A DNA stretch of 64,000 nucleotides. It comes from Proteiniphilum saccharofermentans (GTDB taxonomy: Bacteria > Bacteroidota > Bacteroidia > Bacteroidales > Dysgonomonadaceae). Positions 37,289-60,699 of the stretch are shown here, piece by piece; within the stretch, counting starts at the first letter, position 1; each line of letters starts with the position of its first letter. The stretch is taken from assembly GCF_900095135.1 (NCBI RefSeq), contig NZ_LT605205.1, positions 2,232,001 to 2,296,000 of the forward strand. The letters are read 5' to 3'. Under the pieces are notes generated by a model, which was given only the letters and a program-made list of their open reading frames with translations, searched no databases and was not told where the DNA came from. Both the position numbers and the translations under genes were made by a program.

Positions 37289-37771
37289 CTATTGTGCTGT
37301 ACCATGAGCGGCTGAATGCATCCGGTGAGTAATATCTATCATATTGTCATCCTCGATCCGGTACAGCCGCTGGTTGGTAGTCCTCTTATTTAACCCTCCG
37401 AGCGTTTCGATATAAGGGCCGGTCTTTACGAAATCAAAATGATCCTTTGAATTCTCCGGCAGCCTGTCGCTTCCCGAATACCACGCCGTTTTGATCCTTC
37501 CTCCCCGGCTTTTCCGGACGAAATCCGCCAACCGGTATAATTCACCGGTATCGGCATCGCCTCCCATAAAACATATACAGGTAATTGCCTTTTCGTATGA
37601 CTGCAGCAGTCCGGCAAGCGCAGATTCATTCAACTCTTTCCCTATATCCTGTTGCAGGTGTGGACTGTGGCATCCCCTACAACGGTAGGGGCAATTCGAC
37701 AGGTTGACCGCCAACGTTACTTCATCGGGGATTTCCTGAAAGACAATATCATAATCGACATATTTCAACAT
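37289..37771 (-). CDS. nrdG: Anaerobic ribonucleotide reductase activating protein
   Basis: A 160-residue radical-SAM protein. The cluster motif CPYRCRGCHSP (CxxxCxxC) is near residue 28, with CICFMGGDADTGELY later. It uses S-adenosylmethionine and a 4Fe-4S cluster to place the glycyl radical on NrdD. It lies 81 bp downstream of nrdD on the same strand, under the same cobalamin riboswitch. Confidence 0.94.
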   Translation of the reverse strand: MLKYVDYDIVFQEIPDEVTLAVNLSNCPYRCRGCHSPHLQQDIGKELNESALAGLLQSYEKAITCICFMGGDADTGELYRLADFVRKSRGGRIKTAWYSGSDRLPENSKDHFDFVKTGPYIETLGGLNKRTTNQRLYRIEDDNMIDITHRMHSAAHGTAQ

Positions 37772-37852
37772 ACAAACAGCTTATTTTCAGCGAACCTTAT
37801 CCTGATCCGTTTCTTTTAATATATCGCATTTATTTTAATACATCACGTTTAT

Positions 37853-39970
37853 TTAATATCCCACCGTCTCTTTCTCCGATTCCAGCTTCCCGTAAAACCT
37901 TTTGGATGCTTCTGCCTGACGCGGAACAGAGAAGTTACTTACCCGTTTCATATAACCGATGATACGTGTAAGATAATCCAGATTCCTGGAAGCGCATACG
38001 GGGCACTGTTTCAGATAGCGTTTATCGATCTTTCCGCAATCGTTACATACCGTATTCGGAATATTAAAGGTGAAGTAATTGCACCCTTCTGCGGCTGCTA
38101 CCCGCAGCAGCTGGCGGTATTGCGCTTTTGAGAGATGTTCTTCCAGGTTCATATGGAGCGCAGATCCGCCTGTCAGGTGCTCGATATAATCGCGTCCATG
38201 CAGGCGGAACTTATCGATCACATTCAGGGATGAGTCTTCCACCCGGTAGAAATAGCTGTTATAGCAATCACGGGGTACTGAATATCCATCCTCCCTGTCC
38301 CATTTGGCATGCTTTACACCCACATTTTCGGCAGGGATCATTTCGCAGTTGAACATCAGTTCTTTCGACCGGTATTTTTTATTGTACCTTTCGATGATCC
38401 CCAATATTTCCTGTACAAATGCCACGTAACGGGGATTATGGTTGATCTCGATGCCCAGTGATTCGGCAGCTTCTACCAACCCGTTCACGCCGATGGTCAG
38501 GTACTGTCGGCTGATATTGATAAATCCCGCATCGAACAGGGGCAGCATCCCTTTCTGCTGGAACATTTTCAGGTTTTCATTATAAGCGGTCTGTACTTTG
38601 TGGGTTAAATCGACCACCTCTTCGAGAAATGCCGTGTAGGATTGTCCGGTACGTTTCGCGAACTGGATGCAGCGGTTCAGGTTGATGGTAAGCACGCTTT
38701 TCGAACCGGTGGAGACTCCTCCGGCTCCCAATGTGTAGCTGAACCCGTTGTCCTGAATTTCATTGCGCAGGCGACAGCAACTCGACAGCGAGTCGGCATT
38801 GTCGCTCATGTAGGTGAAGAACGAGTGCCCTTTGGCATACATTTCAGCCGTAAAATCGGCATATTCGGTATCCATCACATCATCCTCTTTCGAGAGCAAC
38901 GCCATGGTTTCTACCGGAAAGGTGAGTACGGTCTTGGTCCGCTCTTTGTTGAACCACCGCATAAAGCGTTTCTGCAGCCAACTGAGTGAATCCCATACCG
39001 GACGGGAGCCGTCGGGAAACTGAAATTCGCCGAACAGGTTTTCGAAGTAGTATTTGTCGTAGTAGGAGATATTCCAGAAGACAGCCTGGAAATTACGTGC
39101 CCCGGTGGGCTGGTTGATGGAGTAGACGATTTGCTCGAAGCAGTCGGTGATCACCTTGTCGAGGGAGCGTTGTCGTTTAGAGAGGTCGACCACATCCCTG
39201 TGGCGTGTAAAATAGTCGTCGCCATACTCTTTGCGGATGAAATAGTCCAGGTACATCAGAAACTCAGGTGTAGCGCAGGCGCCGCTCAGCATGCTCGACA
39301 CCATGAATACCATATTGATGAATCCGCCGCAAAACGATTTCAGGTTGGTCGGCGGTGTAGAGTTCCCGCCGATGGCAAGGGTACCGTTCAGTAGCCAGGG
39401 ATACATGGTGATGCTGGCGCAATAGTTGGCCAGACTGGTTTCATCGTTTTTATAGATGAAATGCTCGTTCAGCATGCCGATATATTTATCCGCCAGTTCC
39501 TTCCCGTACATCTCCTTCAGCCGGTCGGTGATCATCTTCCGATTCAGGTCGATAAAGCTCTTTTTGGGTAGTTCGCCGATAAGCGTGGCGATGTTTTTCT
39601 TCTCCACATTGGCATTGGAGTCGAATTTACTTCCCGTGGCAGCATTTTGCGCATCGCAATAATTCATCAGGAAGTTCAGGTTGTCCCGGATCTCACGCGT
39701 TTCGGTATGCTTTTGGCGGTAAAGCATATAGGATTTCGCGACGGCAAAATATTTTTCTGCCATCAGCGCCGTTTCCACCTGGTTCTGGATCTCTTCCACG
39801 GTCATCCCGTCGGAGATGTGAAGGCGCGAGAGGATAGCGATGAAATCATCTTCGGTGGCGAATGCGCCTACCGAGAGAAATGCTTTTGCAACGGCATTTT
39901 CTATCTTTTTAATAGAGAAGGGGACATGTTTACCGTCCCGTTTCAGGATCTGAATTGTTTGGTTTCCCAT
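37853..39970 (-). CDS. nrdD: Anaerobic (class III) ribonucleoside-triphosphate reductase
   Basis: A 705-residue protein. An ATP cone covers residues 1-90 (ILKRDGKHVPFSIKKIENAVAKAF). The barrel contains CGGF, NISRQYLTIGVNGLVEAAE and GVKHAKW. A zinc site follows with CNDCGKIDKRYLKQCPVC, and the glycyl-radical segment is TRIIGYM (Gly about 672). It makes dNTPs without oxygen and without B12. The cobalamin riboswitch at 40147-40385 stands in its leader. Confidence 0.96.
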   Translation of the reverse strand: MGNQTIQILKRDGKHVPFSIKKIENAVAKAFLSVGAFATEDDFIAILSRLHISDGMTVEEIQNQVETALMAEKYFAVAKSYMLYRQKHTETREIRDNLNFLMNYCDAQNAATGSKFDSNANVEKKNIATLIGELPKKSFIDLNRKMITDRLKEMYGKELADKYIGMLNEHFIYKNDETSLANYCASITMYPWLLNGTLAIGGNSTPPTNLKSFCGGFINMVFMVSSMLSGACATPEFLMYLDYFIRKEYGDDYFTRHRDVVDLSKRQRSLDKVITDCFEQIVYSINQPTGARNFQAVFWNISYYDKYYFENLFGEFQFPDGSRPVWDSLSWLQKRFMRWFNKERTKTVLTFPVETMALLSKEDDVMDTEYADFTAEMYAKGHSFFTYMSDNADSLSSCCRLRNEIQDNGFSYTLGAGGVSTGSKSVLTINLNRCIQFAKRTGQSYTAFLEEVVDLTHKVQTAYNENLKMFQQKGMLPLFDAGFINISRQYLTIGVNGLVEAAESLGIEINHNPRYVAFVQEILGIIERYNKKYRSKELMFNCEMIPAENVGVKHAKWDREDGYSVPRDCYNSYFYRVEDSSLNVIDKFRLHGRDYIEHLTGGSALHMNLEEHLSKAQYRQLLRVAAAEGCNYFTFNIPNTVCNDCGKIDKRYLKQCPVCASRNLDYLTRIIGYMKRVSNFSVPRQAEASKRFYGKLESEKETVGY

Positions 39971-40146
39971 ACGAATTTATTTTTTAGTGTGTGAACAGAG
40001 ATGTCAATACCATTACACTTTTCGATACGGGAAAACATTTGCCATTGCGGCGGTAAGCTTATACAGATAGAGCAGTTAAAAAAGGTGTATAAACCTCTGT
40101 TTTCGACTCTCTTTTTACCCGAAAGAGATCAAAAAGTGTACACATC

Positions 40147-40385
40147 TGGCAGGTCTTCTGACTTACTCCTCCTTTTGCGCTTCCTTCCCGGCCTTTCATC
40201 AACCCTCTCACAGGAAAGAGTTCAAGCCAGTGGATGTGAGTATTGCGCAAAGGTTTTATGCAGAGCTTACAGCAGCGGGAACTGTTGCCGACTTTCACGG
40301 CATTCCCTTTTCATTTTATTCGCAGCATTCGTAATCCTATTCCATTGGAGGTATCATCCTGCCTGGTCCATCGGGAGTAGGTTGA
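40147..40385 (-). promoter_or_regulatory. Cobalamin riboswitch upstream of nrdDG
   Basis: The minus strand has the B12-box AAGTCAGAAGACCTGCC (40163 to 40147 region) and the core GGGAATGCCGTGAAAGTCGG followed by CAACAG and CCCGCTGCTGTAAGC. The P-stem bases differ from the other two copies in this window but pair among themselves (GCC/GGC). A small stem AGGT...ACCT with TTTTTT (about 40088-40100, minus) is a possible expression platform. Confidence 0.9.
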
Positions 40386-40447
40386 CCCCGTGAAGACGTA
40401 GAGTTGATCCCCGAATAGGTTGTGCAAATAAAAAACCAAATGCACAA

Positions 40448-40481
40448 CAAAGGTAATTTATCTTCAATGATAAAGTGCAAA
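40448..40481 (-). promoter_or_regulatory. Candidate promoter of the nrdDG transcript
   Basis: Minus-strand TTTG (40481 to 40478), a 22-bp spacer and TACCTTTG (40455 to 40448) resemble the Bacteroidetes promoter. It lies about 60 bp before the riboswitch core. Confidence 0.55.
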
Positions 40482-41069: not shown

Positions 41070-43079
41070 TTATATCTGTTTCCATTTTCCTGCTTTGAGA
41101 TCATCGATTGTCGGATTGTAAGCATTATTTCTGACCGTCCATGTGGATTCCCCTTCTAATACTTTTCCAAGAGCGTTTTTGAGCCCTTCAAAGGATGTCA
41201 GAGCTTTTTGTGCTTGTATTGTCACATTGCCTCCGATATAGGTAAGCGCCGAAAATGTATCCAGATCTTTGATATAATTATTTTCCGGATTGGAGAAAGC
41301 AGTAAGCTGGAAATAATCACCCACATAAGCCAATTGAGGAAACGAAATATTGGCCACGATCGAGCTGTTGCCACTTGTCTGTATTACAAAATAAGTTTCG
41401 GATCGGGTCAACGAAGGAAATGACAAATCGACAGGAGTTGGTTGACCCTGGGAATAGTATGAAAAAGACCCGACTTTTTCCAATAACGGAAAATTGAATT
41501 CTATTCCGAACTGGTTATTGAACATAAATCTTGCACCTACCTCTTTTAATGCAGGCATTTTATAACTCATGCAATTGGAACCATACTCGAAGATCAGATC
41601 GTTTTGTACGCTTTCTATTTCATTCAATTCAACAGTTGTAATGTTATTGCATCCCGATATATGTAAACCTTTCAGGTGTTTTATACCCGAAAGATCAGGG
41701 AGTTTTTTGATTGTCAGATACCAGAGAGCAATCTCCGTTTCACAGGTTTCACCCGCTATGAGCTTTACAGGATTCGATGTTCCCTGAAAAATCAGTTTTC
41801 CTGCTTTCAATTTAGTTAAATCCAATTCCGATATGTTCGGCAGGTTATTCAGGGTGAGTTCCCCGACATCTGCCAACGCAGGTAAAATATCACTTAAGCT
41901 TGTCGCTTCGTTATTGGATATCTGTAACTTACCACCCACCATAGCCAGCGACTTTATCCAGTCAGCAGCGGTGATTTTCGGAAAACCGGGCATAGTGAAA
42001 TCACCTCCTATGGCAATTAAAGAGGAAAAATCAATGGTAGTGATATTGTCGTTCGTCACTGAAAGATTCAGCCTGGTTTCAATCTTTTCAAGAGAAGGGA
42101 ATTCAATCTTTACCAGTTTACTAAGCGATGCTATATTCAATTCACGTACACCTGACAGTTTCGGGAAAACAGTTTCGGTTACTTCTTTCCAGTTAGTGAT
42201 ATCCAGTTTTCCGCCGATTTTCTCCAATGCCGGAAAGTCAATTACTTTTAGCTTATTGGTATTCCAACCGGCTTGGAATGTCACATTATTCACCACACTT
42301 TTCAGTTTGGGGAACTCCATTACCAAAAGCGAATCCAGGTTTATAAATGATATTTCATCATCCACCTTAAGCAATTCGGGGAACTGTATTGTTTCCACTC
42401 TACTCTGTTTGATAATTAATCCCAGCATGACGGCCTGTAGTCTGGGGAACGTCACGGTTTTCAGCTTCTTGTTCTGGTCTATTTGCAGCGATCCGATCAA
42501 CTCCAGATTTTCCAGTCCGGTGAGGTCGTCGCCGGCATAAGTAGGATTAATTGTAAGGTCGTATTTCACTTTTTTAAGTTTCTCCAGTCCCTCCAGCGAG
42601 TAGATGGAATCCTGTCCTGTAACGGCACCAATGGTAAGGCTTCCGTTCAATTCACTGAGCCCGAGTGCTGCAAAAGCATCGACATCGGCTTGTGTAAGCA
42701 ATACCACATCGCCATCTTTCGAAACCGCATTGTGTTCGACTCGATAGACATAGGTCTGTGTATTGCCGTTGTAGGATGTAACGGTAAATGTCTGTTCATT
42801 GTCCCAATCGGTAATGGATGACGGATCGGGAGAGATGGTCGCCAGTTCGCTGATGGTGACGGTGGCTGTTGCTCCTTCGAGCGATAAATTCGCGGGAACG
42901 GTTACCACCAGATTTCCTTCTGAGATGGCCGCATAGAAAGTCTGCTCACCCTGTTTTAATTGGAACGATACTATATTATTATCATTACCCGAGAACGCGC
43001 TATTGTCATCGTCACATGCAATCATAAAGAGACCGGCAAACAGCGATATGATGATTGTTTTTATATTGATATTGTTCAT
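41070..43079 (-). CDS. Surface lipoprotein with leucine-rich/receptor-L-like repeats
   Basis: A 669-residue lipoprotein (lipobox near MIAC, Cys22, followed by acidic residues DDDN, the Bacteroidetes surface-export pattern). Residues about 35-115 form a DUF5018-like beta domain (VVTVPANLSLEGATATVTIS). From about 140 to the end stand irregular repeats of 20-25 residues of the type LxxIxFPxLxxI, as in receptor-L or leucine-rich solenoids. It is the last gene of the btuB operon and a paralog of the disrupted gene before it. A role in binding a ligand at the cell surface, perhaps corrinoids or a carrier, is inference from the operon only. Confidence 0.8.
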   Translation of the reverse strand: MNNINIKTIIISLFAGLFMIACDDDNSAFSGNDNNIVSFQLKQGEQTFYAAISEGNLVVTVPANLSLEGATATVTISELATISPDPSSITDWDNEQTFTVTSYNGNTQTYVYRVEHNAVSKDGDVVLLTQADVDAFAALGLSELNGSLTIGAVTGQDSIYSLEGLEKLKKVKYDLTINPTYAGDDLTGLENLELIGSLQIDQNKKLKTVTFPRLQAVMLGLIIKQSRVETIQFPELLKVDDEISFINLDSLLVMEFPKLKSVVNNVTFQAGWNTNKLKVIDFPALEKIGGKLDITNWKEVTETVFPKLSGVRELNIASLSKLVKIEFPSLEKIETRLNLSVTNDNITTIDFSSLIAIGGDFTMPGFPKITAADWIKSLAMVGGKLQISNNEATSLSDILPALADVGELTLNNLPNISELDLTKLKAGKLIFQGTSNPVKLIAGETCETEIALWYLTIKKLPDLSGIKHLKGLHISGCNNITTVELNEIESVQNDLIFEYGSNCMSYKMPALKEVGARFMFNNQFGIEFNFPLLEKVGSFSYYSQGQPTPVDLSFPSLTRSETYFVIQTSGNSSIVANISFPQLAYVGDYFQLTAFSNPENNYIKDLDTFSALTYIGGNVTIQAQKALTSFEGLKNALGKVLEGESTWTVRNNAYNPTIDDLKAGKWKQI

Positions 43080-43093
43080 ACGATTATTCTATT

Positions 43094-44336
43094 TTACGGT
43101 TTCACCCATTTGTTATCCAACAGATCCTGATAGGCAGGATTATAGCCATTGTTTTCAACACTCCAGGCGCTTGCCGGAAACGATGATATGGCTTTACTGA
43201 ATCCTTCATACGAGATTAATCCCTGATGCCTCACAATTTCGACACCTTTTACCGATTCAAGCGCTGAAAATCCATCGAGATCCGTAAACCGTTCATTTAT
43301 ATAGTTATCACCTCCATCCAGATAAGGTTTAAGTGTTATTTTTCCGCCTATGGTTTTTAACATGGGGAAAGATAAACTCTTCATGTCGCGACCGTAAGGG
43401 TCCCACTGAGACGTTGACGCATACCCCGTTCCTATTATTAAATTACCTGCAACATAGGTTAAGGCAGGGAGTTCCAGCGCAATTATATCTCTTGAGGCGG
43501 TGGTAATCCTGAAGTCGCCGCCCACCGATTTCAGTTTTGGAATAATGAACACTGAATCCTCTACCGATACAGAAGAAAGGTGATTGATAACGAAGTTACC
43601 GCCTACTTCTTCCAGATCGGGCAGGCTGAGCCCAATCAGATTGTTATTAGGAATATGAAATCCTTTGTTTATTTTTCGTATACCTTTCATCTCCAGATTT
43701 CTGAGATTGGATATATAGTTGCCGTATGATATGGAGTCTATTTCATGGAAACCCTCAAAAACAGGAGATACCCAGTCATACGTTCTACCGTTTTGGGTAT
43801 CAAAACTTACTATTCCGTGAAACACGTCGTCACCAATAATTTTGATACCGTTTACCGCATCCCGTTCAATCGACAGTTCTCCAAGGTTCATCCCTTTTAT
43901 ATTGATTTCAGCGAAATTGCGATCCACATTCTGATTGTAGATGGTTAACTTTTCAATTCGCCTGATTGAGGAAGGAATTGAAAGGGTTCTCATTTCAGAC
44001 ATTTCCATAAGCCGGAGTTCACCTTCTATCTTTTCCAGTTTGTCAAATCCTGTTGAAATACCGGAAAGCGTAGTGTTCTGGATGCTAAGATTTGTAATAG
44101 CTGCAAGTTTGGGAAAATGAAGCAGCCCCAATTCGGCTCCTTTGACCTCGACCGTATTTGCCTGACGCATTTCGGGGAAGCTCAATTCCGACAACTTTGA
44201 AACATCAGGAAGAGTGATAGTACCTGTCGATACTTCCAGTTTAGGAGCATCGATAAAGGCAAGCACAGTAAGCCAGTTTAATTTAATATCGCCTACTTCT
44301 TTCAATTCGGGGAGTAATATCTTTGTCAACGACGGA
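43094..44336 (-). pseudogene. C-terminal part of the split LRR-like surface lipoprotein
   Basis: About 411 residues of LRR-like repeats (TKILLPELKEVGDIKLNW, then FPEMRQANTVEVKGAELG) with the ending YNPAYQDLLDNKWVK, which parallels YNPTIDDLKAGKWKQ of the neighbouring paralog. It is in the same direction as the N-terminal part at 45648-46534 and is separated from it by the IS4-family element. Both ends share the 9-bp duplication AACGACGGA, so they were one gene of about 710 codons. Confidence 0.88.
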
Positions 44337-45647
44337 CACTACTGGACACTTAGATCCAGTTGATTTTTAATTGTTTATAATCGAGCTCTTTGACATTTTT
44401 GTAATCGCAATTCGTAAGTATCTCTCTTATAGGAGTTTTGTCCAGTAGGGAGATACTGAGTATTTGCAGAATTTCGTAGATTGGACGCTCAACTTTCAAT
44501 TCGTAACCAATCAAGGCTACCAGACAGTAAGCGATGATAGCACAATATAACTGGATTTTAACGGCGTTGATGGTCGTTCCCCAGAAGTTTTTTACTTTCA
44601 GGTGTTGTTTTATCCATTTGAAGAACAGCTCAACCATCCAGCGTTTTTTATACAGTAGCGCTATCTCGACGGCCGTCAAGTCCATGTTATTGGTTATAAA
44701 AACGAAGTCCTGCCCAGTTCCACGTCGTGATACTTGATTCTGCGCAGTTTGCCGGGATAGTCCTTTTGCTGGTAGAATCCCTCCAGTTTCCCGATCTGGT
44801 CGCATTGCACGCCCGTCGACTTGTCAACTTCCCGGGAATACATCCTGCGGAACTTGAAGTTCTTCTTGGCCCGCGTGACAAACCAGGCTTCGGATTCATT
44901 CACCCGGTACAACCTGTCAAAGTCCACGTATCCGCGGTCGAAGATATAAAAGCTCCCGGATTCATAATGAAGATAATCCATCGCGTTCATATCATTGACC
45001 TTTGCGCTGGTGATCAACACGAAAGTCGGAATGGAAGTCTTCAGGTCATACAATGTATGCAACTTGATGCCTCCCTTGTGCTTGCGGAACTCCGCCCACC
45101 AGAAGACACTCAGGCACAGGTCGATGGTGGAGGAGTCAAAGGCATAGACGTTCCCGTCCACCTTGACTTCGAAGTCCTCCCTGTAATGACTTTGACGGGC
45201 CTTGTCCATCATCACATAGGCAAAATCCTCAAAGATTTTATAGCTACGGTTACGATTGGCTTTACCCAGATTTGTCCGGGTTACGCTTGCCCCCAGTCCC
45301 AAATGGTAATATTTGGATTGATGGGCTTCCAGGCTCAGCATCAAGTCCCGCATACTGTCACGGGCTGTCAATTGTCCAAAGATCATGCATAGCATCTGGT
45401 TCCAGCAGGTGAAACTTCGGACTTTCTTGTTTCCATCGTGTCTGGATACGATATTGTCAAATACCCTGCGTGGTAGAAAATCTGTAAGCTGCGCGAAAAT
45501 ATATTTGCCTTGATTCATGATTTTTACTTTTGGGCAAAGTAAAATATAATCATCGCATTTCAAATCGTCACACAACTAAAATTTCTCAAAACTGCGATCT
45601 ACAAAAGATTTCAAAGAACTATTTTTTTATTTAAGTGCCCACTAATG
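44337..45647. mobile_element. IS4-family insertion sequence with 9-bp target duplication
   Basis: A 1311-bp element. The ends CACTACTGGACACTTA and CATTAGTGGGCACTTA (right end, complement) are imperfect inverted repeats with 13 of 16 matches. AACGACGGA stands on both sides (44328-44336 and 45648-45656). It disrupts a surface lipoprotein gene of the B12 operon. The target duplication is perfect, so the insertion appears recent. Confidence 0.93.
44350..45518 (-). pseudogene. IS4-family transposase (DUF4372 N-terminus), frameshifted
   Basis: The first frame (from ATG 45518, MNQGKYIFAQLTDFLPRR) carries the DUF4372 domain and the catalytic region with FYIFDRGYVDFDRLYRV. It ends after DVELGR at about 44705. 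The second frame continues QDFVFITNNMDLTAVEIALLYKKRWMVELFFKWIK (conserved Y-2-R-3-E region) to the end. The frames join if one base is restored in GGCAGGAC. The transposase is probably inactive, unless a slip occurs or the base was lost in assembly. Confidence 0.85.
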
Positions 45648-46534
45648 AACGACGGAAGGAAATAAACCACTATGCTTTCGGCTTTCTCCAACGATGGAAA
45701 TGCTACTGAAGTAATCATCGCATCCCTGTCTTCCAAATGAATACTTTGCACCTGTTTCAGGTGGGGAAAACTGATACCGCCCAACGGGCATTGCAGTGTG
45801 ATGGCCTTTGTTACATTCTCCAGCCGGCTAAATATTACCTCTCCAAGCTTCGAATTTTTAAAGAATACCGATCCGGCCGACTGTAATTTAGGGAAGCTCA
45901 CTTTTTCGATATTGGCTGCGGTTGAATAAATATCGCCGCCTACTTTTTCCAAAGCGTCGAAACCGGCCAATTCTGCCGCTGCAAAACTGGGATGGATCGT
46001 CAACGAGTAAGTGATCTCCTTCAGTTTTGCCAATGGGCCCAGATCCCTGATAGAGTCGGTACCGGTGGTGCTGCCGATGATCAGGCTTCCTCCGATGGCA
46101 GTAATATCGCTTGCCCCGAAAGCATCCACGTCGGCTTGTGTAGCCAGTATTACCGTTTCGTTCGCATCGATATGGCTCCGGATGACGCTGTATTTATAGC
46201 TTAGCTGCGTTGTACCGTCAAAAGCGGTTACGGCAAACAGTATTTCCTCGTCCCATTGGGTAATGTCCGCGGGATCGGGGTATATCGAAGCATTTTCACT
46301 CAATTTCACCGTCGCCGTGGCGCCTTTCAGCGATATACCTTCCGGTACCTTTACGGTGATGAGCCGCTCAGTAATTTCGGCATTAAAAACCGTCTCGCCT
46401 TGTTGTAAACTGAAAGACGTGATATAGCTGTCGGTACCTGCAAACGGATCATCTTCGTTAGTACAGGCCAACAAAACCAACAGGCTCACCATCAGCATGA
46501 AAAAGATATTTTTATAACTATATATTACATTCAT
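45648..46534 (-). pseudogene. N-terminal part of the split LRR-like surface lipoprotein
   Basis: It encodes a signal peptide with lipobox LLAC, an acidic stretch (TNEDDPFAG), a DUF5018-like domain (ITVKVPEGISLKGATATVKLS) and the first LRR-like repeats up to the IS at YFLPSF. The layout and wording are close to those of the paralog at 41070-43079, for instance LATQADVDAFGA/LLTQADVDAFAA. It starts 19 bp after the preceding lipoprotein gene, in the btuB operon. Confidence 0.88.
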
Positions 46535-46553
46535 TGCTTTATGCGTTTGATTG

Positions 46554-51545: not shown

Positions 51546-51710
51546 TTCGCCGGTTATTATTCGCTAATAAACAGCTTTGCGCGAGAAATGCACACATGAA
51601 GAGGGTATCTCCTTCCGGAATATAAAAATGATCGAGAACGGATATATAAGGAATGGTTCCTCCTGATGTAGTAAGCTCTAATCTCCGAAAGCTTAAAACT
51701 CTATATATTT

Positions 51711-51895
51711 CTGGCAGGTCTTCTGACTTACTCCCGTGTCTGAACGCCTTCCCATCCCGGTTTATCGGGACAGTGGCAATTGAGGTTTTTGTCCAGCACG
51801 TAAGCGGAGCTTACAGCAGCGGGTCTGTTCAGGATTTGCACCTGATTCCCTTTTCATCATTCATTTCGAAGCCGTGTGAAATGAATAACACCAAA
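51711..51895 (-). promoter_or_regulatory. Cobalamin riboswitch upstream of btuB
   Basis: The minus strand contains GGGAATCAGGTGCAAATCCT, then GAACAGACCCGCTGCTGTAAG and, at the 3' end, the B12-box AAGTCAGAAGACCTGCC. The order and spacing fit the family. About 165 bp separate it from the btuB ATG. Confidence 0.95.
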
Positions 51896-51903
51896 ATTCA
51901 AGG

Positions 51904-51911
51904 CAAAGATA
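51904..51911 (-). promoter_or_regulatory. Promoter -7 element of the btuB operon
   Basis: TATCTTTG on the minus strand fits TAnnTTTG and stands just upstream of the riboswitch. An ATTG at 51937 to 51934 is 22 bp further up. Confidence 0.5.
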
Positions 51912-51966
51912 GGTTATTCTTTTGGGATTTATTCAATAAATTTGTGAAAATGGTACAAGAATGTTG

Positions 51967-52068: not shown

Positions 52069-52078
52069 CTCTTCCACC

Positions 52079-53611
52079 TTATAACGGAATATTGCCATGT
52101 TTTTTTGGCGGATTAGTCTCCGTTTTGTTAGCCGTCATTTCCAGTGCCTGGATCAACTTGTAGCGGGTATCTTTCGGCAGGATAATCTCATCGATATATC
52201 CTTTTTCCGCAGCCCGGTAAGGATTGGCAAACAGCTCTTTGTATTCGCTCAGCGCTTTTTGCCGCTCCGTCTCGTCGGATGAACGATACAGGATATTCAC
52301 CGCACCTGCTGCACCCATTACCGCAATCTCGGCATTCGGATAAGCTAAGTTCACGTCTGCTCCCGACTCTTTGGACGCCATGACAACATACGCGCCTCCG
52401 TACGCCTTACGCGTTATAAGTGTGATCTTCGGGACGGTCGCTTCCACATAGGCAAACACCACCTTGGCTCCGTGACGGATAATACCGTTATGCTCCTGGT
52501 CGCGTCCGGGAAGAAAACCCGGCACATCTTCGAAAGTAATGATAGGGATGTCGAAACAATCGCAGAAACGGATGAACCGTGCTGCTTTGTCCGATGCGTC
52601 GATATCCAGTACGCCGGCCAGATAAGCCGGTTGATTAGCCACAATCCCTACTGTGCGGCCCCCCATGCGGGCGAATCCTATCACGATATTTTGTGCGAAT
52701 TGCGACATGATCTCGAAGAAGTAATGTTCGTCCACCACCTCTTCAATCAGTTTTTTCATATCATATGGAATATTCGGATCATCAGGGATCAGCGTCTGCA
52801 ATTTGGGAGATTGTCGATAGATGCTGTCGTGTGTAGGCACTACCGGAGGATCTTCCATATTGTTGGAAGGGAGAAAACTCAGCAGTTCACGGATCATCAT
52901 AAGCGTTTCTTCCTCGTCCTCGCCTACGAAATGAGCCACCCCGCTTTTGGATGCGTGAGTAGTTGCCCCGCCCAGCTCTTCCTTGGTCAGTTCTTCGTGT
53001 GTGACTGTTTTCACCACATCAGGACCGGTGACAAACATATAGCTTTTCTCTTTCACCATAAAGATGAAGTCGGTAAGTGCCGGAGAGTAGCAGGCGCCGC
53101 CGGCACAAGGGCCGAGGATAGCGGAAATCTGGGGTACGACTCCCGAAGCTTTGATATTCTGATAAAAAATATCTGAAAAGCCACTGAGTGCCATCACGCC
53201 TTCCTGAATGCGTGCACCCCCCGAATCGTTCAGGGCAATGATCGGCGCCCCGTTTTTCATCGCCAGCTTCTGTACCTTTACAATTTTATTGGCATTCGTG
53301 CGGCTCAGTGAACCGCCGTACACCGTGAAATCATAAGCATAGACATACACCAATCGTCCGTCTATCTTTCCGTAACCGGCCACTACGCCGTCGCCGGGGA
53401 TACGGCTGTTCTGCATGCCATAGTGGTTACATTCGTGAAGTATGAATTTGTCGATTTCAACAAATGTATTATCGTCCAATAACATATCGATCCGTTCACG
53501 GGCTGTCTGTTTACCGGATTGCTTTTGTTTTTCGATCGCTTTCTCTCCACCGCCGGCTTCGGCAGCTTTGTTTTTTTCTTCAAAAGACTGATATATTTCC
53601 TGTAGTGTCAT
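52079..53611 (-). CDS. Acyl-CoA carboxylase carboxyltransferase subunit (propionyl/methylmalonyl-CoA type)
   Basis: A 510-residue crotonase-fold carboxyltransferase with NDSGGARIQEGV, ILGPCAGGACYSPALTDFIFMV in the N-half (CoA site) and DVPGFLPGRDQEHNGIIRHGAK and KAYGGAYVVMASK in the C-half (biotin site). The fold is that of PccB/MmdA. With a biotin carboxylase and a biotin carrier in the same operon it forms a propionyl-CoA-type carboxylase. Its product, methylmalonyl-CoA, is the substrate or product of a B12-dependent mutase, which links it by pathway to the adjacent B12 uptake locus. Confidence 0.92.
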   Translation of the reverse strand: MTLQEIYQSFEEKNKAAEAGGGEKAIEKQKQSGKQTARERIDMLLDDNTFVEIDKFILHECNHYGMQNSRIPGDGVVAGYGKIDGRLVYVYAYDFTVYGGSLSRTNANKIVKVQKLAMKNGAPIIALNDSGGARIQEGVMALSGFSDIFYQNIKASGVVPQISAILGPCAGGACYSPALTDFIFMVKEKSYMFVTGPDVVKTVTHEELTKEELGGATTHASKSGVAHFVGEDEEETLMMIRELLSFLPSNNMEDPPVVPTHDSIYRQSPKLQTLIPDDPNIPYDMKKLIEEVVDEHYFFEIMSQFAQNIVIGFARMGGRTVGIVANQPAYLAGVLDIDASDKAARFIRFCDCFDIPIITFEDVPGFLPGRDQEHNGIIRHGAKVVFAYVEATVPKITLITRKAYGGAYVVMASKESGADVNLAYPNAEIAVMGAAGAVNILYRSSDETERQKALSEYKELFANPYRAAEKGYIDEIILPKDTRYKLIQALEMTANKTETNPPKKHGNIPL

Positions 53612-53632
53612 TGCTGTGATTTTTAATTGCTT

Positions 53633-54136
53633 TTAATTGGTTTTAAAAGATATGAGTAACTGATCGCGGGCTACGGAATCGCCTTCCTCTACGTGGATTT
53701 TGTCCACGATAGCATTCTGGGCCGCCGTATAAGTGCTCTGCATCTTCATGGCTTCCACCACAATAAGCGGATCACCCTGTTTTACTTCCATACCTTCGGA
53801 AACCATTATTTTTATGATCTTGCCCGGCATAGGGGAGGTAATGGTTTCCTGTGCTTCTTCCGGGGTGGATTGACGTCCTCTGATATATTTTTTCTGCGGA
53901 TTTGACAGTTCGATGTCGAAATAACGAAAATTGGTGGTGATGGTATATTTCCCTTCCGAATGGCGTACCGATTCAGCGTTGTAGGAACGTCCTTCGTGAA
54001 GAATGGAACAGAATCCGCTCTCCGACATTACCACATCGATATCATATATTTTCCCGTCCACTGAGATTTCGACTCTGTTTCCATCTTTGGATATCAGTTC
54101 CACCTCACATGTCCTGTTGCCTATCTTTGCCTTCAT
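53633..54136 (-). CDS. Biotin carboxyl carrier protein
   Basis: A 167-residue protein with a C-terminal biotinyl domain (residues 95-167) holding the biotin lysine in VVEAMKMQST (Lys131). The first 85 residues are a conserved beta domain typical of the carrier subunit of propionyl/methylmalonyl-CoA carboxylases. It is 21 bp upstream of the carboxyltransferase gene. Confidence 0.93.
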   Translation of the reverse strand: MKAKIGNRTCEVELISKDGNRVEISVDGKIYDIDVVMSESGFCSILHEGRSYNAESVRHSEGKYTITTNFRYFDIELSNPQKKYIRGRQSTPEEAQETITSPMPGKIIKIMVSEGMEVKQGDPLIVVEAMKMQSTYTAAQNAIVDKIHVEEGDSVARDQLLISFKTN

Positions 54137-54226
54137 ACGATTATTTTATTTGCTTACATCAATGCATATGGAACATTTCAGAACCAAGACAAAAAATCTT
54201 GAATCTTAAATCTTGAATTTTGAATC

Positions 54227-55735
54227 TCATATCCTCAAAACTCCCTTTTGTTTACCGAATGCGCGCCAGCGACTTATGGGAAGATTATCGGCAGGCGATG
54301 ATGAAGGTGCATCATTGCTGTTCACTATATGGTCTATATAGGCAGCGATGATGGCCATGTCTTCTATCTCGTTGTCATTGCCGCCACTTTCCTGCAGCTT
54401 CTTGCTATTGTCTTCGATAAAATGCGTGGTATAATTTCCTTTTACGAAATCACGTGTGTCCATAATGCGGCGAAGGTAATCGATATTGGTCTTTACCCCC
54501 GTGATTTTATATTCGTATAGCACACGGCGCATCCGCTCCAGCGCATAAATGCGGCTGGTTGCCCACACAATCAGTTTACCGAGCATCGAGTCGTAATAGA
54601 CCGGGATTTCGTATCCATCGTAAATAAAACTGTCCACCCGCACACCTATGCCTTCGGGTGTTTGAATATGCCGGATAATACCGGGCGACGGTGCGAAGTT
54701 ATTTTCAGGATCTTCAGCGCATATACGGCATTCAATGGCATGACCACGCTGATGTAAATGCTTCTGGCGTAAACGTAGTTTTTTTCCGTTGGCAATATGT
54801 ATCTGTTCTTTTACCAGGTCAACGCCCAGTACCTCTTCAGTAATAGGATGTTCCACCTGGAGGCGGGTATTCATCTCCAGGAAATAGAAGTTCATATCGC
54901 CATCCACCAGAAATTCTATTGTACCGGCCCCGACATAGCCGATAGACCTGGCTGCCTTGACGGCGATGGCGCCCATGGCCTGACGGGTCTTGTCATCGAT
55001 AAAAGGGGAGGGGCTTTCCTCCACGATCTTCTGGTGACGGCGCTGTACCGAGCATTCACGGTCGAACAGATGTATCACATTCCCGTGGGCATCACCCAAG
55101 AACTGTATTTCGATATGGTGAGGCGATTCGATATATTTTTCGATATATACCGAGTCGTTCCCGAATGAGGCCCTTGCTTCTGACTTTGCGGCTTCGTAGG
55201 CCTCGTACAATTGTTTTTCTTCATAGACCAGACGCATACCTTTACCGCCGCCTCCGGCCGTTGCTTTAATAATGACAGGAAGTCCTATCCTACGGCAGAC
55301 ACGGAACAGGTCCCTCGGCTTCAGGTCTTCCGATGTACCGGGCACCACAGGTACCTTGGCTTTTATCATCTGCCGGCGAGCCGATATCTTATCACCCATG
55401 GCTTCGATACTTTCTGCCGACGGGCCAATGAAAATAATACCCTCTTCCTTGCAACGACGTGCAAAATCGGCATTTTCACTCAGAAATCCGTATCCCGGAT
55501 GAATAGCGTCTGCTTTGAACTGTTTTGCGGCTTTGATGATTTTATCGGCATTCAGATAGCTCTCCTGCGAAGAGGCCAGACCGATACATACCGCTTCGTC
55601 GGCATAAGAGACGTGCCTTGAGGTACGGTCGGCCTCGGAATAGACGGCCACCGTACGGATACCCATCTCTTTACATGTGCGCATCACACGCACAGCAATT
55701 TCGCCCCGATTTGCAATTAGAATTTTTTGTATCAT
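54227..55735 (-). CDS. accC: Biotin carboxylase subunit of acyl-CoA carboxylase
   Basis: A 502-residue ATP-grasp enzyme with ILIANRGEIAVRVMRTCKEMG, the glycine-rich GGGGKGMRLVY (ATP lid), YFLEMNTRLQVEHPITEEVLG and the C-terminal RICAEDPENNFAPSPG. It carboxylates the biotin carrier with bicarbonate and ATP. The C-terminal 40 residues are a non-conserved tail. It is the first gene of the operon (90 bp upstream of the carrier gene). It may equally serve fatty-acid synthesis, hence the symbol is the family one. Confidence 0.93.
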   Translation of the reverse strand: MIQKILIANRGEIAVRVMRTCKEMGIRTVAVYSEADRTSRHVSYADEAVCIGLASSQESYLNADKIIKAAKQFKADAIHPGYGFLSENADFARRCKEEGIIFIGPSAESIEAMGDKISARRQMIKAKVPVVPGTSEDLKPRDLFRVCRRIGLPVIIKATAGGGGKGMRLVYEEKQLYEAYEAAKSEARASFGNDSVYIEKYIESPHHIEIQFLGDAHGNVIHLFDRECSVQRRHQKIVEESPSPFIDDKTRQAMGAIAVKAARSIGYVGAGTIEFLVDGDMNFYFLEMNTRLQVEHPITEEVLGVDLVKEQIHIANGKKLRLRQKHLHQRGHAIECRICAEDPENNFAPSPGIIRHIQTPEGIGVRVDSFIYDGYEIPVYYDSMLGKLIVWATSRIYALERMRRVLYEYKITGVKTNIDYLRRIMDTRDFVKGNYTTHFIEDNSKKLQESGGNDNEIEDMAIIAAYIDHIVNSNDAPSSSPADNLPISRWRAFGKQKGVLRI

Positions 55736-56074: not shown

Positions 56075-57070
56075 TCAAATCTCCATCTCCAATTCTTTTT
56101 TCATGTCGAAATCACCGTCGTGAAGATACACTATTTCGAGGGTTTTTTCGTAATTGGTCGATTTTTTGGAAAAGAAATCGTGTTGTGTCGTTTCCACATT
56201 CAGCCCGTTCAGTACGATCGGGTTTACCTCATTGATTTCGTAGCGCGGCTCGAAGCCGAGGTTCATCAACGCCTTGTTGCCGTTATACCGGATATATTCC
56301 TTTACCTCGGCTCCGAGGCCGATATCGCTGTAGACATGATCGGTATACTTCATCTCGTTTTCATAAAGGATGTCCATCAGGGCGAGTAGATCAGCTTTGA
56401 GTTTTTCCTTTTTCTTTTCGTTGAAAGTATCGAATATCTCCTGTGCCAACAGCCCGACAAACACACCGTGGATGGATTCGTCGGCGATGATCTTCTTGAT
56501 AATATCACAACTGGCGACCATCTGCCCTTGACCAGCCAGCCATAAGGGAAGGAAGAAGCCGCTGTAGAACAGGAATGTCTCAAGCATAACGGAAGCCACC
56601 AACGCCATATATACCTCTTCTTTCGATACATGCTCTTTGTCGAGCTTGCGGTAATAGCTATCGATCGTTTTGGCTTTGAACTGGAGTTGTTCATTGGTAG
56701 ATGCCCATTCAAAAATGGCATCGATTTCGGTGGTGGAAGCCACTGTCGTAAAAATAGTGGAATAGGATTTGGCATGGATGGCTTCCATCATACACATATA
56801 GGAAAGTACCGATTTGTTTTGCAACCCCTCGATATTGTCGATCACCTTAGGCATACCGGTATGGCTCTGCAGGGTATCGAGCAGGGTCAATCCCCCCAAT
56901 GCTTTTTTATATGCTTCGCGCAGTTCGGGCGAAAGCGATTTCCAGGAATCGATATCTTTTGAAGGGATATATTCGGTATCGATCCAGAACTGTTTCAGGT
57001 TTTGTTCCCAGAACATCTCTACGTAGTCGTTCTCGGGAGTATTCCAGTTGACGGCTTTAAATTGTTTCAT
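56075..57070 (-). CDS. nrdF: Class Ib ribonucleotide reductase beta subunit
   Basis: About 331 residues from ATG 57070 (MKQFKAVNWN). Ferritin-like with the ligand/radical helix CMMEAIHAKSYSTIF (the radical tyrosine is the first Tyr of the SYSTIF segment), a preceding LQSHTG, and ADESIHGVFVGLLAQEIF for the last ligands. It gives the tyrosyl radical, in class Ib assembled with manganese and NrdI. It is 340 bp downstream of nrdE, separated by a long palindrome. Confidence 0.93.
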   Translation of the reverse strand: MKQFKAVNWNTPENDYVEMFWEQNLKQFWIDTEYIPSKDIDSWKSLSPELREAYKKALGGLTLLDTLQSHTGMPKVIDNIEGLQNKSVLSYMCMMEAIHAKSYSTIFTTVASTTEIDAIFEWASTNEQLQFKAKTIDSYYRKLDKEHVSKEEVYMALVASVMLETFLFYSGFFLPLWLAGQGQMVASCDIIKKIIADESIHGVFVGLLAQEIFDTFNEKKKEKLKADLLALMDILYENEMKYTDHVYSDIGLGAEVKEYIRYNGNKALMNLGFEPRYEINEVNPIVLNGLNVETTQHDFFSKKSTNYEKTLEIVYLHDGDFDMKKELEMEI

Positions 57071-57253
57071 TATGATTAATATTAGAGCCAAGAATCAAGA
57101 GCCAAGACACAAGACTATTCAGTCCTGTAATAGGAAGCAAAAGGGTTTTGCTAATGCTGGCCGTTGGTTCATGTTTGTTTTTTATAATATTGTTGTTTTT
57201 ATTTTCGCGTGTGTCTTTGGAATATGACTGAGACTAAAGCGGAGACCTTTTAG

Positions 57254-57363: not shown

Positions 57364-57410
57364 CGTCAGTCGATGATTTAGTTGTAGTCATACCTCTTTG
57401 CAAAAATCAA

Positions 57411-59501
57411 TTACACCGAGCAGGAGATACAGTCTTCGACTGTCGTTTTCCTTGTCCGGGTATAATACAATGATTTCAATCCCGCCTTATGGGCGTAGAT
57501 ATAGTACCGCGCCAGGTCGCGGGTCGTATGGCTGCTTTTGGTATGCAGTATGGTCGATATACCCTGATCCACATGCCGTTGGATCACCGAGATCAGCCTT
57601 ATCACTTTCATCTGATCCATATCATATGCCGATTTGTAAAAGAAATAATTGTCGTTGGTGAGGTAAGGCATCGGATAGAACGAAGTGCTGTCGCCATATT
57701 CGCGCACCTCTATCGTATCCACCGCGGGCATTACCGAAGCGGTGGAACTCATGATATAGGAAGTCGACTGGTTGGGCGCTATCGCCAGCCGGTAGGCATG
57801 ATACAGCCCGTGTTGCATTACCTGTTCTTTCAGGTTCTTCCACTCTTCGATCCCGGGAATACCGATCCCTTCGAATAACTCCTTTACCTTGTCGGTTTTA
57901 GGCAGATAATCCTGCCCGGTATATTTATCGAAGTATGTCCCTTTGGCGTATTCCGACTTGTCAAAATCCTTAAAGACGATTCCTTTTTCGCGGGCGATCT
58001 CCATGGAACGCTCCAGCGAATAGAAATTCATCATCATGAAAAACACGTTGCAGAAGTCGAGCGCCTCGGTACTTTCGTACGAAATAAAATTCTTGGCAAA
58101 CAACCCGTGCAGGTTCATTGCTCCCAGTCCCACGCTGTGCAGCTCTTCGTTGGCTTTTTTGATGGAGGGGACAATTGCGATATCCGAGATATCCGAAACA
58201 ACCGTCAGGGAGCTGATGGCGGTCTTCACCGCTTCCCTGATCCGTTTGTTATCCATCACGGTCACGATGTTCAGCGAACCCAGGTTACAGGAAATACCGC
58301 GGCGGATCACATCCTCCTCGTAATAATCGTTGATCTCCGATACTTCCGACAATTGCATTATCTCTGTGCACAGGTTGGAGAATTTCACTTCACCGATATC
58401 TTTCAACGCATGCCCGCGGTTGGCATTGTCCTTGAAGAAGAGATAAGGATAACCGCTCTCTTTCTGTGTCTGGGCGATCTTTACCAGCATCAGGCGGGCA
58501 TTGAGCCTTTTCTTCCTTACTTTGGGGTTATCGACCAGTTCGGTATACATTACATTGATATCCATATCGTCGAGGTACTGCCCGTATGCCTGAAACACGG
58601 TATGCGGATAGAACACATAGAACGGCTCATCCTTTTTGGCAAGCTCCATGAACTTGTCGGGAACCACTACGCCGATGGAGAGGGATTTGATACGCACTTT
58701 CTCATCCACGTTGATCTTTTTACAATCGAGGAATTCCTCGATATCGGAGTGGAATACATTGAGGTAAACCGCCCCGGCGCCCGGCCGTTGCCCTAATTGG
58801 TTGGCATAGGAGAACACATCCTCTAAAAGCTTCATCACCGGCAATACGCCGCTGGCACGGCCTTCCACTCCTTTTATCGCTTCCGAACGTCCGCGCAGCT
58901 TGGAGAGATTAAGCGAAACACCACCGCCGATGGACGAAAGTTTCATGGAAGAATTAATCCCGTAACCGATCCCGTTCAGGCTGTCGCCGATCTCGTCGAG
59001 GAAGCACGACACCAACTCTCCCGAGCGTTTTTTGCCGGCATTCAGGAAGGTGGGGGTGGCGGGTTGGTATTCCTGATTGATAAACAATTCGGCATACTCC
59101 ATTGCCTTATTTATATCGCCACGGCCGAGATAAAGCGCAGCACATGCCAACCGGTCCTCATACCGTTCCAGAAATTTCTCCCCGCTATCATCCCGCAGGG
59201 CATAATTCTGGAAGAATTTGAACGCACTGATATAGGACGGAAAACGGAATTTCTTCTCGTACATCAGGCTGTACACCTCTTTGATCTCGTCGAAGGAATA
59301 CCATTCCAGCAAATTCTCGTAATAGTTGTTTTCGATCAGGTAATCTATCTTTTCTTTCAACGTATAGAAAAATACGGTGTTTTTATTGACATATTCGAGA
59401 AAATAGGAGCGTACCGCCTCTTTGTCCTTCTCGAACTGAAACTCATCGTCCTTTTTCACCATTACCTGGTTGTTGAGCAATATCCAGTTTTTTACTTTCA
59501 T
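57411..59501 (-). CDS. nrdE: Class Ib ribonucleoside-diphosphate reductase alpha subunit
   Basis: A 696-residue alpha subunit without an ATP cone at the N-terminus. Motifs: ATPTFLNAGKKRSGELVSCF, SSIGGGVSLNLSKLRG, RRGISCNLGSLNI (active-site cysteine region), GLGAMNLHG and APNQSTSYIMSSTASVMPA. The C-terminal redox pair is in CISCSV (Cys691, Cys694). The absence of the ATP cone and the link to nrdI/nrdH identify class Ib. It lies downstream of the third cobalamin riboswitch with nrdH and nrdI. Confidence 0.95.
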   Translation of the reverse strand: MKVKNWILLNNQVMVKKDDEFQFEKDKEAVRSYFLEYVNKNTVFFYTLKEKIDYLIENNYYENLLEWYSFDEIKEVYSLMYEKKFRFPSYISAFKFFQNYALRDDSGEKFLERYEDRLACAALYLGRGDINKAMEYAELFINQEYQPATPTFLNAGKKRSGELVSCFLDEIGDSLNGIGYGINSSMKLSSIGGGVSLNLSKLRGRSEAIKGVEGRASGVLPVMKLLEDVFSYANQLGQRPGAGAVYLNVFHSDIEEFLDCKKINVDEKVRIKSLSIGVVVPDKFMELAKKDEPFYVFYPHTVFQAYGQYLDDMDINVMYTELVDNPKVRKKRLNARLMLVKIAQTQKESGYPYLFFKDNANRGHALKDIGEVKFSNLCTEIMQLSEVSEINDYYEEDVIRRGISCNLGSLNIVTVMDNKRIREAVKTAISSLTVVSDISDIAIVPSIKKANEELHSVGLGAMNLHGLFAKNFISYESTEALDFCNVFFMMMNFYSLERSMEIAREKGIVFKDFDKSEYAKGTYFDKYTGQDYLPKTDKVKELFEGIGIPGIEEWKNLKEQVMQHGLYHAYRLAIAPNQSTSYIMSSTASVMPAVDTIEVREYGDSTSFYPMPYLTNDNYFFYKSAYDMDQMKVIRLISVIQRHVDQGISTILHTKSSHTTRDLARYYIYAHKAGLKSLYYTRTRKTTVEDCISCSV

Positions 59502-59679
59502 TTAATTAAAATTTAGAGCCAGGAATCAAGACTGATTGAAATTATGAGTTATAAATTATAATTTATTAATTCCCAATTAATTATAAAATCATGAACCTTC
59601 AAATCATCCCATTATCACATCAATATATTGATCCTTATGCCCGTTTGTATAATTTCTATTTTTATTACAGGCACACTGC

Positions 59680-60069
59680 TTACATAACCAGTGCCTGTAG
59701 TTGTGCCTTATAGGCATTAACTTTCTCTATATAGGCGTTTACATCCCGTTCCAATCCCGACAGTTCGAATTTCAGCAAGAGCGGTATCCCGTATCTCGTC
59801 GCAATCTTGTCGGCTGCCACGGCAAAGTTCGCACCCCAGTTCATATTCCCGCTCGACGAGACGGTTAAGATAAACGGGGAGTTCGCCTGCATGAAACGCC
59901 CAGTAGAGTAGGGTACCTGACCTATCTTAGTAGTATAGGTAATAAGGTGACCGGGGCTTGAAACGATCAAATCTTCAGATATTTTCAGGCATTGCCATCC
60001 GGTTCTTGCTGATACCTTACGCACAAAACGTTCCACATTGCCCGTTCTGCTATCGTAATAGATTGTCAT
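59680..60069 (-). CDS. nrdI: NrdI flavodoxin-like protein
   Basis: A 129-residue protein with MTIYYDSRTGNVERFVRK (phosphate loop), QVPYSTGRFM and VSSSGNMNWGANFAVAADKIATRY, all NrdI hallmarks. It reduces oxygen to superoxide to assemble the dimanganese-tyrosyl cofactor of NrdF. The start overlaps nrdH by four bases, and 178 bp without a gene separate it from nrdE. Confidence 0.92.
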   Translation of the reverse strand: MTIYYDSRTGNVERFVRKVSARTGWQCLKISEDLIVSSPGHLITYTTKIGQVPYSTGRFMQANSPFILTVSSSGNMNWGANFAVAADKIATRYGIPLLLKFELSGLERDVNAYIEKVNAYKAQLQALVM

Positions 60070-60305
60070 AGTTGTGCTACCATTGTATTCAACTTCTCCG
60101 GATCATAACCCACAATGCGTACTAATTCCTCGCTCCCATCAACCAGGATAGTAGTGGGAACAGAACGTATTTTATATTTCATTGCCAGTTCCGGACTGTT
60201 AAACGGGTTGACAGCTTCAAAAGCAATGTTCTTATCTTCAAGGAATCTCGACACCATCAGGCACGGATTGCAATCTTCTTTTTCAAATTTGACGATCTTT
60301 CTCAT
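60066..60305 (-). CDS. NrdH-like thioredoxin/glutaredoxin
   Basis: A 79-residue thioredoxin-fold protein with the active site EDCNPCLMVSRFL (Cys12, Cys15), cis-Pro IRSVPTTILV and a final VGYDP helix. It probably reduces the NrdE C-terminal disulfide, as NrdH does. It lies first in the operon after the riboswitch. The CNPC motif is thioredoxin-like rather than the CVQC of classical NrdH. Confidence 0.88.
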   Translation of the reverse strand: MRKIVKFEKEDCNPCLMVSRFLEDKNIAFEAVNPFNSPELAMKYKIRSVPTTILVDGSEELVRIVGYDPEKLNTMVAQL

Positions 60306-60526
60306 TTTGATGCAATTTTACAGGTTATTAAACAGCCCATATATGCACAACACATCCTGTCATGCATGGGATAAACAAACATCGGATTGAATTTTTTACT
60401 TCTGAACTATTTTTTTAAGTCACATGAATAGTAGATAAGTTTTCTTATTCTACAACTTAATAAAAAACAGTTTAGCTTTATTGCACATTTCCTTTATAAA
60501 CCCGAAAGAAAATTTATTTCTTGTTT

Positions 60527-60699
60527 TGGCAGGTCTTCTGACTTACTCTGTTTCCGGCGGCCTTCCCTTTACATATAATAAAAGTGGCAAAAAGAATTGC
60601 AGAAACGCTTGAATGAGTTTACAGCAGCGGGTTCTGTTCAGGATTTGCACCTGATTCCCTTTTCATTCCGGTCACGAGGACTCGTAATCGGAACACCAA
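60527..60699 (-). promoter_or_regulatory. Cobalamin riboswitch upstream of nrdHIEF
   Basis: Minus strand: GGGAATCAGGTGCAAATCCT, then GAACAGAACCCGCTGCTGTAAA, and the B12-box AAGTCAGAAGACCTGCC at the 3' end. It stands about 220 bp upstream of the nrdH-like ATG. A strong promoter box is not clear upstream. Confidence 0.95.

Follow-up and report, generated by a model that had tools for sequence, protein, structure and literature searches.

Through the nrdABS riboswitch of Streptomyces, reportedly described by Borovok in 2006, B12 is said to control a B12-independent class Ia ribonucleotide reductase, there apparently encoded in a single operon. Class III reductases have also been placed behind such elements. 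In the available text of the respective reports, B12 elements precede nrdDG in Desulfovibrio vulgaris and Desulfuromonas, with NrdJ in the genome and the same repression proposed (PMC545781, 2004), Propionibacterium acnes carries cobalamin riboswitches at nrdAB and nrdDG and none at nrdRJ, from which the same logic was drawn (PMC3848588, 2013), and in Chlorobium cobalamin riboswitches are found before btuB, btuF, metE and nrdD (PMC8620254, 2021). As for class Ib, the available part of PMC4428469 places it under NrdR, and in the open-access literature searched no paper was found that puts a class Ib operon under a cobalamin riboswitch. The subject here is a stretch of 64,000 nucleotides (nt) from Proteiniphilum saccharofermentans (family Dysgonomonadaceae; assembly GCF_900095135.1, NZ_LT605205.1:2,232,001-2,296,000, forward strand), called the window below, in which three cobalamin riboswitch aptamers precede the operons nrdDG (class III reductase), btuB-btuG (B12 import) and nrdHIEF (class Ib reductase). 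Judging from these elements and the genes that they head, it is highly probable that B12 represses both nrdHIEF and nrdDG, the backups of a class II reductase, NrdJ, encoded elsewhere in the genome.

The whole window was scanned with cmscan at the Rfam gathering thresholds (31.5 bits for RF00174), and each of the three aptamers, all on the minus strand, matches RF00174 over model positions 1-189, i.e. in full length. Specifically, the aptamer before nrdHIEF (60511-60715; 104.7 bits, E 3.7e-25) ends 205 nt 5′ of the nrdH start, the one before btuB-btuG (51696-51910; 102.0 bits, E 2.2e-24) 150 nt 5′ of the btuB start, and the one before nrdDG (40131-40344; 77.9 bits, E 1.7e-17) 160 nt 5′ of the nrdD start. 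A preliminary description of the window had claimed three aptamers on the minus strand 5′ of these same operons, and both the aptamers and the gene order are borne out. The intervals that it had given for the first two (60527-60699 and 51711-51895) are sound, deviating at either end by 15-16 bases; in the third case (40147-40385) the 3′ edge holds to within 16 bases and the 5′ edge does not, as it lies near 40455. Indeed, comparison with the homologous nrdD aptamer of P. acetatigenes (L029; 242 bases, 100.4 bits) shows the window copy to be about 83 bases longer and to extend over 40131-40455 on the minus strand, up to the promoter-like TACCTTTG at its 5′ edge (40448-40455). The extra bases lie within 40323-40435 and enlarge the loop of the first peripheral hairpin; the arms on either side of it remain complementary to each other. 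A repeat as the source of this insert was ruled out, the surrounding 96 bases matching the genome once.

The genes behind the two reductase switches are assigned by curated models, again on the minus strand. The class Ib row consists of nrdH (60069-60305; glutaredoxin/thioredoxin-like, with Pfam matches just over the cut-offs and named by position and conserved order), nrdI for the assembly flavoprotein (59680-60069; TIGR00333 97.6 bits, cut-off 74.65), nrdE for the alpha subunit (57411-59501; TIGR04170 1029 bits, cut-off 750) and nrdF for the beta subunit (56075-57091; TIGR04171 446.2 bits, cut-off 355), with gaps of 178 bases between nrdI and nrdE and of 319 bases between nrdE and nrdF. The class III pair is nrdD, the anaerobic reductase (37853-39970; TIGR02827 952.7 bits, cut-off 568.3), and nrdG, its activase (37289-37771; TIGR02826 166.6 bits, cut-off 151.7). 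NrdD has the C-terminal stretch RIIGY, and a GY motif near the C end is a mark of class III enzymes. Between the two operons, also on the minus strand, lie btuB (49506-51545), for a TonB-dependent B12 transporter far below its NCBIfam cut-off (TIGR01779) and best matched among solved structures by 8blw_A (BtuB1; E 1.9e-125), and btuG (48308-49498), for a B12-binding beta-propeller lipoprotein with no telling NCBIfam match, which matches 8blw_B (E 1.3e-38) and 3dsm_A (E 1.6e-12). The best structure matches of the two proteins are thus chains A and B of one entry, 8blw, and 3DSM is BtuG2 in the available text of PMC6143338.

The genome is a single contig of 4,414,963 bases with an estimated completeness of 100%, and it encodes, outside the window as the preliminary description had predicted, a full-length class II NrdJ of 856 amino acids (aa) (TIGR02504 582.7 bits, cut-off 399.95, model positions 2-604 of 606). 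RF00174 has no match in the NrdJ locus (L007), the five cobalamin riboswitches of the genome all lying elsewhere. Two large subunits (NrdE and NrdJ), one NrdD and one small subunit (NrdF) were matched genome-wide; no class Ia reductase was found in this complete genome, and the reductases found belong to classes II, Ib and III. Class III reductases work only without oxygen, class Ib only with oxygen and class II independently of it. On the model proposed here, three separate transcripts would each start with a cobalamin aptamer. Given an ample supply of adenosylcobalamin or a related cobamide, the aptamers would bind it, expression of btuBG, nrdHIEF and nrdDG would fall, and DNA precursors would come from NrdJ, which has no riboswitch; when B12 is short, all three operons would open. 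Two backups would be kept because class III needs the absence of oxygen, class Ib its presence, and class II neither, so that neither backup alone could replace NrdJ. We infer repression as the sign of the response because the riboswitch-controlled btu locus 2 of Bacteroides thetaiotaomicron falls about 70-fold with B12, according to the available text of PMC6143338; the ligand and the mechanism are likewise proposed by deduction.

The two cobalamin riboswitches outside the window head B12-synthesis operons. The fourth riboswitch of the genome precedes genes for CbiK-like, CbiH/CbiC-like, CbiET, CbiGF, CbiL, BtuF-like, BtuC-/BtuD-like and CbiJD proteins, with CobB immediately upstream of this operon, and the fifth precedes a TonB receptor followed by CobU, CobT, CobS, CobQ, a CobD-like decarboxylase and CbiB; CbiK, CbiC, CbiG, CbiJ, CobU, CobD and the ABC transporter parts score below curated cut-offs and are identified by best family and context. 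Most of the anaerobic-type B12 pathway is therefore encoded, and from its gene content the bacterium should make B12 besides importing it. With synthesis genes present, the switches would read the endogenous as well as the imported cofactor.

Conservation was followed in a sample of 101 Dysgonomonadaceae genomes, the bacterium's own included, where NrdJ is over the cut-off in 94, TIGR02827 in 23 (own included) and a class I type large subunit is present in nine. A second NrdD type with weak TIGR02827 scores, near which aptamers occur in several family genomes, was left out of the class III counts, as was one relative (G094) with nrdD at a contig edge from the aptamer scan, leaving 21 comparable relatives. 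In 20 of these nrdD stands behind a riboswitch: directly in 18, with the aptamer 37-226 nt 5′ of the start (among them G080, with nrdD divided between two open frames), and through an operon in two. One of the two (G054) has an aptamer heading a gene for a 124-aa lipoprotein that ends 33 nt before nrdD; in the other (G088; L171 547-13204) nrdDG has no aptamer of its own and follows, after 107 nt, a btuB-btuG row headed by one, so that a single switch may serve both. The last of the 21, G086 (L172, about 5633-5830), has no riboswitch: its sequence aligns with the window as far as a promoter-like TTATCTTTG and again over the final bases ahead of the nrdD start, and the entire riboswitch leader between these two parts is missing. 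Two Dysgonomonas-type genomes have a small cysteine-rich gene of 73 aa between a cobalamin aptamer and nrdD (L041 880-1101 and L042 727-948).

For class Ib, eight of the nine family loci, the window included, have an aptamer 115-228 nt before nrdH. In the ninth (G040) none was found in 1.5 kb upstream of nrdH, with degraded copies sought at E values up to 5. One locus has two successive cobalamin aptamers before nrdH (G031; L052 3064-3267 and 3714-3918), and in another (G008; L056 95-2182) nrdE contains one internal stop codon. With G040 and G086 as exceptions, the pattern among relatives fits the exchange of a class II enzyme for two switched backups. The class Ib operon is rare at a wider scale: among 393 order-wide genomes (six family members in the draw), the window genome alone scores above the class Ib cut-off. 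When named genomes were searched with a pattern-based method, 179 NrdE relatives came up, and the top 80 of them were retained. Eight of these are family loci (the window's own is unlisted), including P. acetatigenes DSM 18083 with 98% and Proteiniphilum sp. UBA5384 with 96% identity to the window's NrdE; the next 15 by identity (55-80%) were examined, and the remaining 57, about 25-28% identical, were left out of the aptamer comparison. Going by organism names, we take the 15 to be seven Fusobacteriota, five Sphingobacteriaceae and three Bacillota. At the class Ib loci of these 15, no cobalamin aptamer occurs in the stretch compared, which for one of them (L100) covers just 175 bases 5′ of nrdH, and 12 of the 15 genomes carry such an aptamer elsewhere.

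The order nrdG-nrdD-btuB operon-carboxylase genes-nrdHIEF recurs in P. acetatigenes as in the window, and the proteins encoded there share 90-100% identity with those of the window. In the sister genome G060 (L057), metE with its own cobalamin aptamer is inserted in the same stretch between nrdF and the carboxylase genes (10655-13060 and 13108-13295), which supports the exchange logic. The island gathers B12-free twins of B12 enzymes, each behind a switch. In a tree of 37 aptamers, built from short sequences and with a bootstrap that had not settled, nine nrdH aptamers from eight loci of Proteiniphilum and Dysgonomonas fall into one group (support 99/97). The btuB, cbi and nrdD aptamers of the window genome fall outside this group, which takes in three aptamers from genomes of Dysgonomonas type (G030, G031 and G033); two of these head a 73-aa gene and then nrdD and one heads three small genes and then nrdD. 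This suggests that the nrdH switch was acquired together with its operon and does not derive from a neighbouring switch of its own genome.

Several neighbouring features were recorded alongside. The carboxylase genes of the window (52079-55735; MmdA-like, biotinyl carrier and biotin carboxylase) belong to a biotin-dependent acyl-CoA carboxylase and begin 339 bases after nrdF; the acyl-CoA carboxylase pathway is tied to B12 through methylmalonyl-CoA mutase. On the 3′ side of btuG, the riboswitch-headed row continues over 41070-48239 with large lipoprotein-like proteins (PKD-like, DUF5018, LRR-like), possibly further B12-binding proteins. Inside this btuB gene row, at 44350-45575, lies an IS4-type transposase in two overlapping frames, which is missing between the corresponding coding stretches of P. 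acetatigenes (L058). Elsewhere in the window there is a thiamine pyrophosphate (TPP) riboswitch on the minus strand (10850-10946; 58.5 bits, threshold 54.3).

The leaders themselves point to how the switches may act. Of 32 distinct leaders, 23 have the motif TAnnTTTG, the Bacteroidota minus-7 box, at the 5′ edge of the aptamer, where the surrounding sequence would lead one to expect about 0.003; eight of the nine misses are nrdH aptamers, mostly one base off, and the window nrdD leader, left out of this count, has the box at the position given above. Cobalamin riboswitches typically have a downstream hairpin whose loop pairs with a CCCG loop of the aptamer. Such a hairpin lies directly 3′ of the nrdH aptamer of the window (60488-60511, minus strand), its loop CGGG being complementary to the aptamer CCCG and a putative kissing-loop partner. 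The nrdD leader has CGGG as well, and btuB has CGGA, a shorter match. Among 33 distinct leaders, 31 have a CGGG loop facing the CCCG of the aptamer; the window btuB leader and the metE leader of G060 do not.

For nrdD a three-strand arrangement can be proposed, all on the minus strand. Strand A (40128-40139) and the hairpin that follows it (40109-40127, loop CGGG) would form a platform over 40109-40139; strand B (40015-40035) is complementary both to strand A with the hairpin loop and to the start codon region of nrdD, which forms strand C (39963-39975). The predicted A-B duplex has an energy of -20.0 (z -2.3) and the B-C pairing one of -16.4 (z -2.9, with 1 of 200 shuffles as good), values that ignore the aptamer and the kissing contact. 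The probability that the nrdD start codon is unpaired is 0.01, compared with 0.28 in shuffles. Sharing strand B, the two pairings would be mutually exclusive: in the unbound state A would pair with B and leave the start free, and with ligand bound the hairpin loop would kiss the aptamer, B would be released and B would close the start codon. Folded freely from the aptamer end to the start, the leaders of the window, L019 and L024 take the closed B-C form and those of L022 and L030 the open A-B form, so that the balance between closed and open is not predicted. A change in nrdD codon 2 (GGA/GGT) together with a leader change was considered as compensation and rejected, since the pairing register shifts by one base, and no covariation is claimed. 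Bacteroidota make little use of Shine-Dalgarno sites. That nrdD is controlled at translation through competition of A and C for strand B has, on this modelling, somewhat less than an even chance.

A number of observations weigh against the proposed exchange, or against its translational form. The related loci cannot be counted as independent: L023 and L027 share an identical aptamer, and some other aptamers are near-identical. G040 combines NrdJ with an nrdHIEF operon that has no aptamer before nrdH, and 4 of the 15 outside nrdHIEF genomes have NrdJ over the cut-off yet no aptamer at class Ib, so that the pairing of NrdJ with a switched class Ib operon is not general. The insert of about 83 bases could impair the window nrdD aptamer. 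No MetE match was found in the genome, and B12 would therefore remain needed for methionine if this is made by MetH. In G086 there is no NrdJ match, a weak negative as the genome is 78% complete; together with the lost nrdD leader, this is nevertheless counted for the exchange. Concerning the leaders, 6 of 28 show A-B pairing with z at or below -2, and strong A-B pairing is absent from the nrdH leaders among these, which limits the three-strand model to some nrdD leaders, and no three-strand platform was found for nrdH. B-C pairing reaches p ≤ 0.05 in 4 of 18 nrdD leaders (two of them near-identical), in none of the 8 nrdH leaders, and neither before btuB nor before the TonB-cobU operon. Premature transcription termination, intrinsic or by Rho, would give the same repression by B12 without hiding the start codon. 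The leaders have room for it, with 115-228 nt between aptamer and start for nrdH (8 loci), 150 nt for btuB and 160 nt for nrdD, and at 40078-40096 inspection by eye shows a stem of four pairs (AGGT/ACCT) and then five T. In the consensus scans, however, no terminator on the minus strand appears between the aptamer and the start codon of nrdD, btuB or nrdH (the scan needs five stem pairs and would miss the AGGT/ACCT stem), and the switches of Chlorobi are said to be mainly translational in the available text of PMC8620254; termination is thus a tentative alternative, on the unlikely side.

Two further explanations concern whether there is an exchange at all. The nrdHIEF and nrdDG aptamers could be degraded or decoy copies from which regulation has been lost; in its favour, the window nrdD aptamer is the lowest of the three in score and carries the insert, and G040 and G086 each lack an aptamer at one nrd operon. 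This is very improbable given that core sequence and loop complementarity are kept (CGGG in all but two of the 33 distinct leaders), that the insert sits in a loop between arms that can still pair, and that 18 of 21 nrdD and 8 of 9 nrdH loci have the aptamer immediately ahead of the gene. Alternatively, the switches may adjust the reductases for some purpose unrelated to exchange with NrdJ, e.g. to economise on iron or manganese, or with B12 serving as a signal of anoxia. Class Ib and class III enzymes need metal centres and opposite oxygen states, and the B12 pathway of the genome, encoded for the most part, is of the anaerobic type; against this, metE in G060, another B12-independent twin, is treated alike, and the sole lost nrdD switch found is in G086, a genome without detected NrdJ. 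Such tuning is improbable, if less so than decoys. The preferred reading remains an exchange of NrdJ for two backups under B12 control, and the preliminary description, which had drawn the same logic, is very likely right in outline.

A wider reading joins these parts: riboswitch and nrdHIEF would together be a cassette capable of transfer. The operon, of class Ib and akin to its counterparts in Fusobacteriota and Sphingobacteriaceae, would have entered the Dysgonomonadaceae and there gained the riboswitch once, the pair would have spread between Proteiniphilum and Dysgonomonas, and copies of the switch would later have come to head Dysgonomonas rows ending in nrdD. An oxygen-indifferent B12 enzyme would thus be exchanged, by an address written in RNA, for two oxygen-specialised B12-free ones, with a three-strand lock on the start codon of nrdD. 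As a whole, with every step included, this is speculative and rather unlikely.

The arrangement extends the known targets of B12 riboswitches to a class Ib reductase, and it shows B12 import and B12-free twins of B12 enzymes collected in one island and separately switched. It also bears on annotation: if the exchange holds, media rich in B12 may keep nrdD and nrdE silent. Natural variants, in which the switch is missing or shared with btuB or the operon is unswitched, allow the model to be put to a direct test, and the nrdD leader gives a specific structural proposal for the action of riboswitches in Bacteroidota.

With respect to known systems, this is a known kind of control applied to an unusual pair of backup enzymes. 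Class III enzymes behind B12 elements are already in print, and the statement in the preliminary description that B12 control of class III is less common understates the literature, as far as the available text of PMC545781, PMC3848588 and PMC8620254 goes. What is new, within the literature searched, is the class Ib target, the cases of gain and loss among relatives and the proposed start-codon switch of nrdD. The Desulfovibrio and Desulfuromonas account mentions no class Ib operon in its available text (PMC545781), and neither does that of Chlorobium (PMC8620254), which resembles the island of G060 in its targets btuB, metE and nrdD. Bacteroides shares btuB-btuG loci with a B12 riboswitch, but the account available concerns import, and B. 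thetaiotaomicron is described there as having no B12 synthesis pathway (PMC6143338). The closest likeness in arrangement is to P. acnes, where, in the available text of PMC3848588, two B12-independent reductases, one of class I and one anaerobic, are switched and NrdJ is not; there the class I enzyme is nrdAB, whereas in P. saccharofermentans, a member of another phylum, it is the class Ib nrdHIEF, and btuBG lies between both operons.

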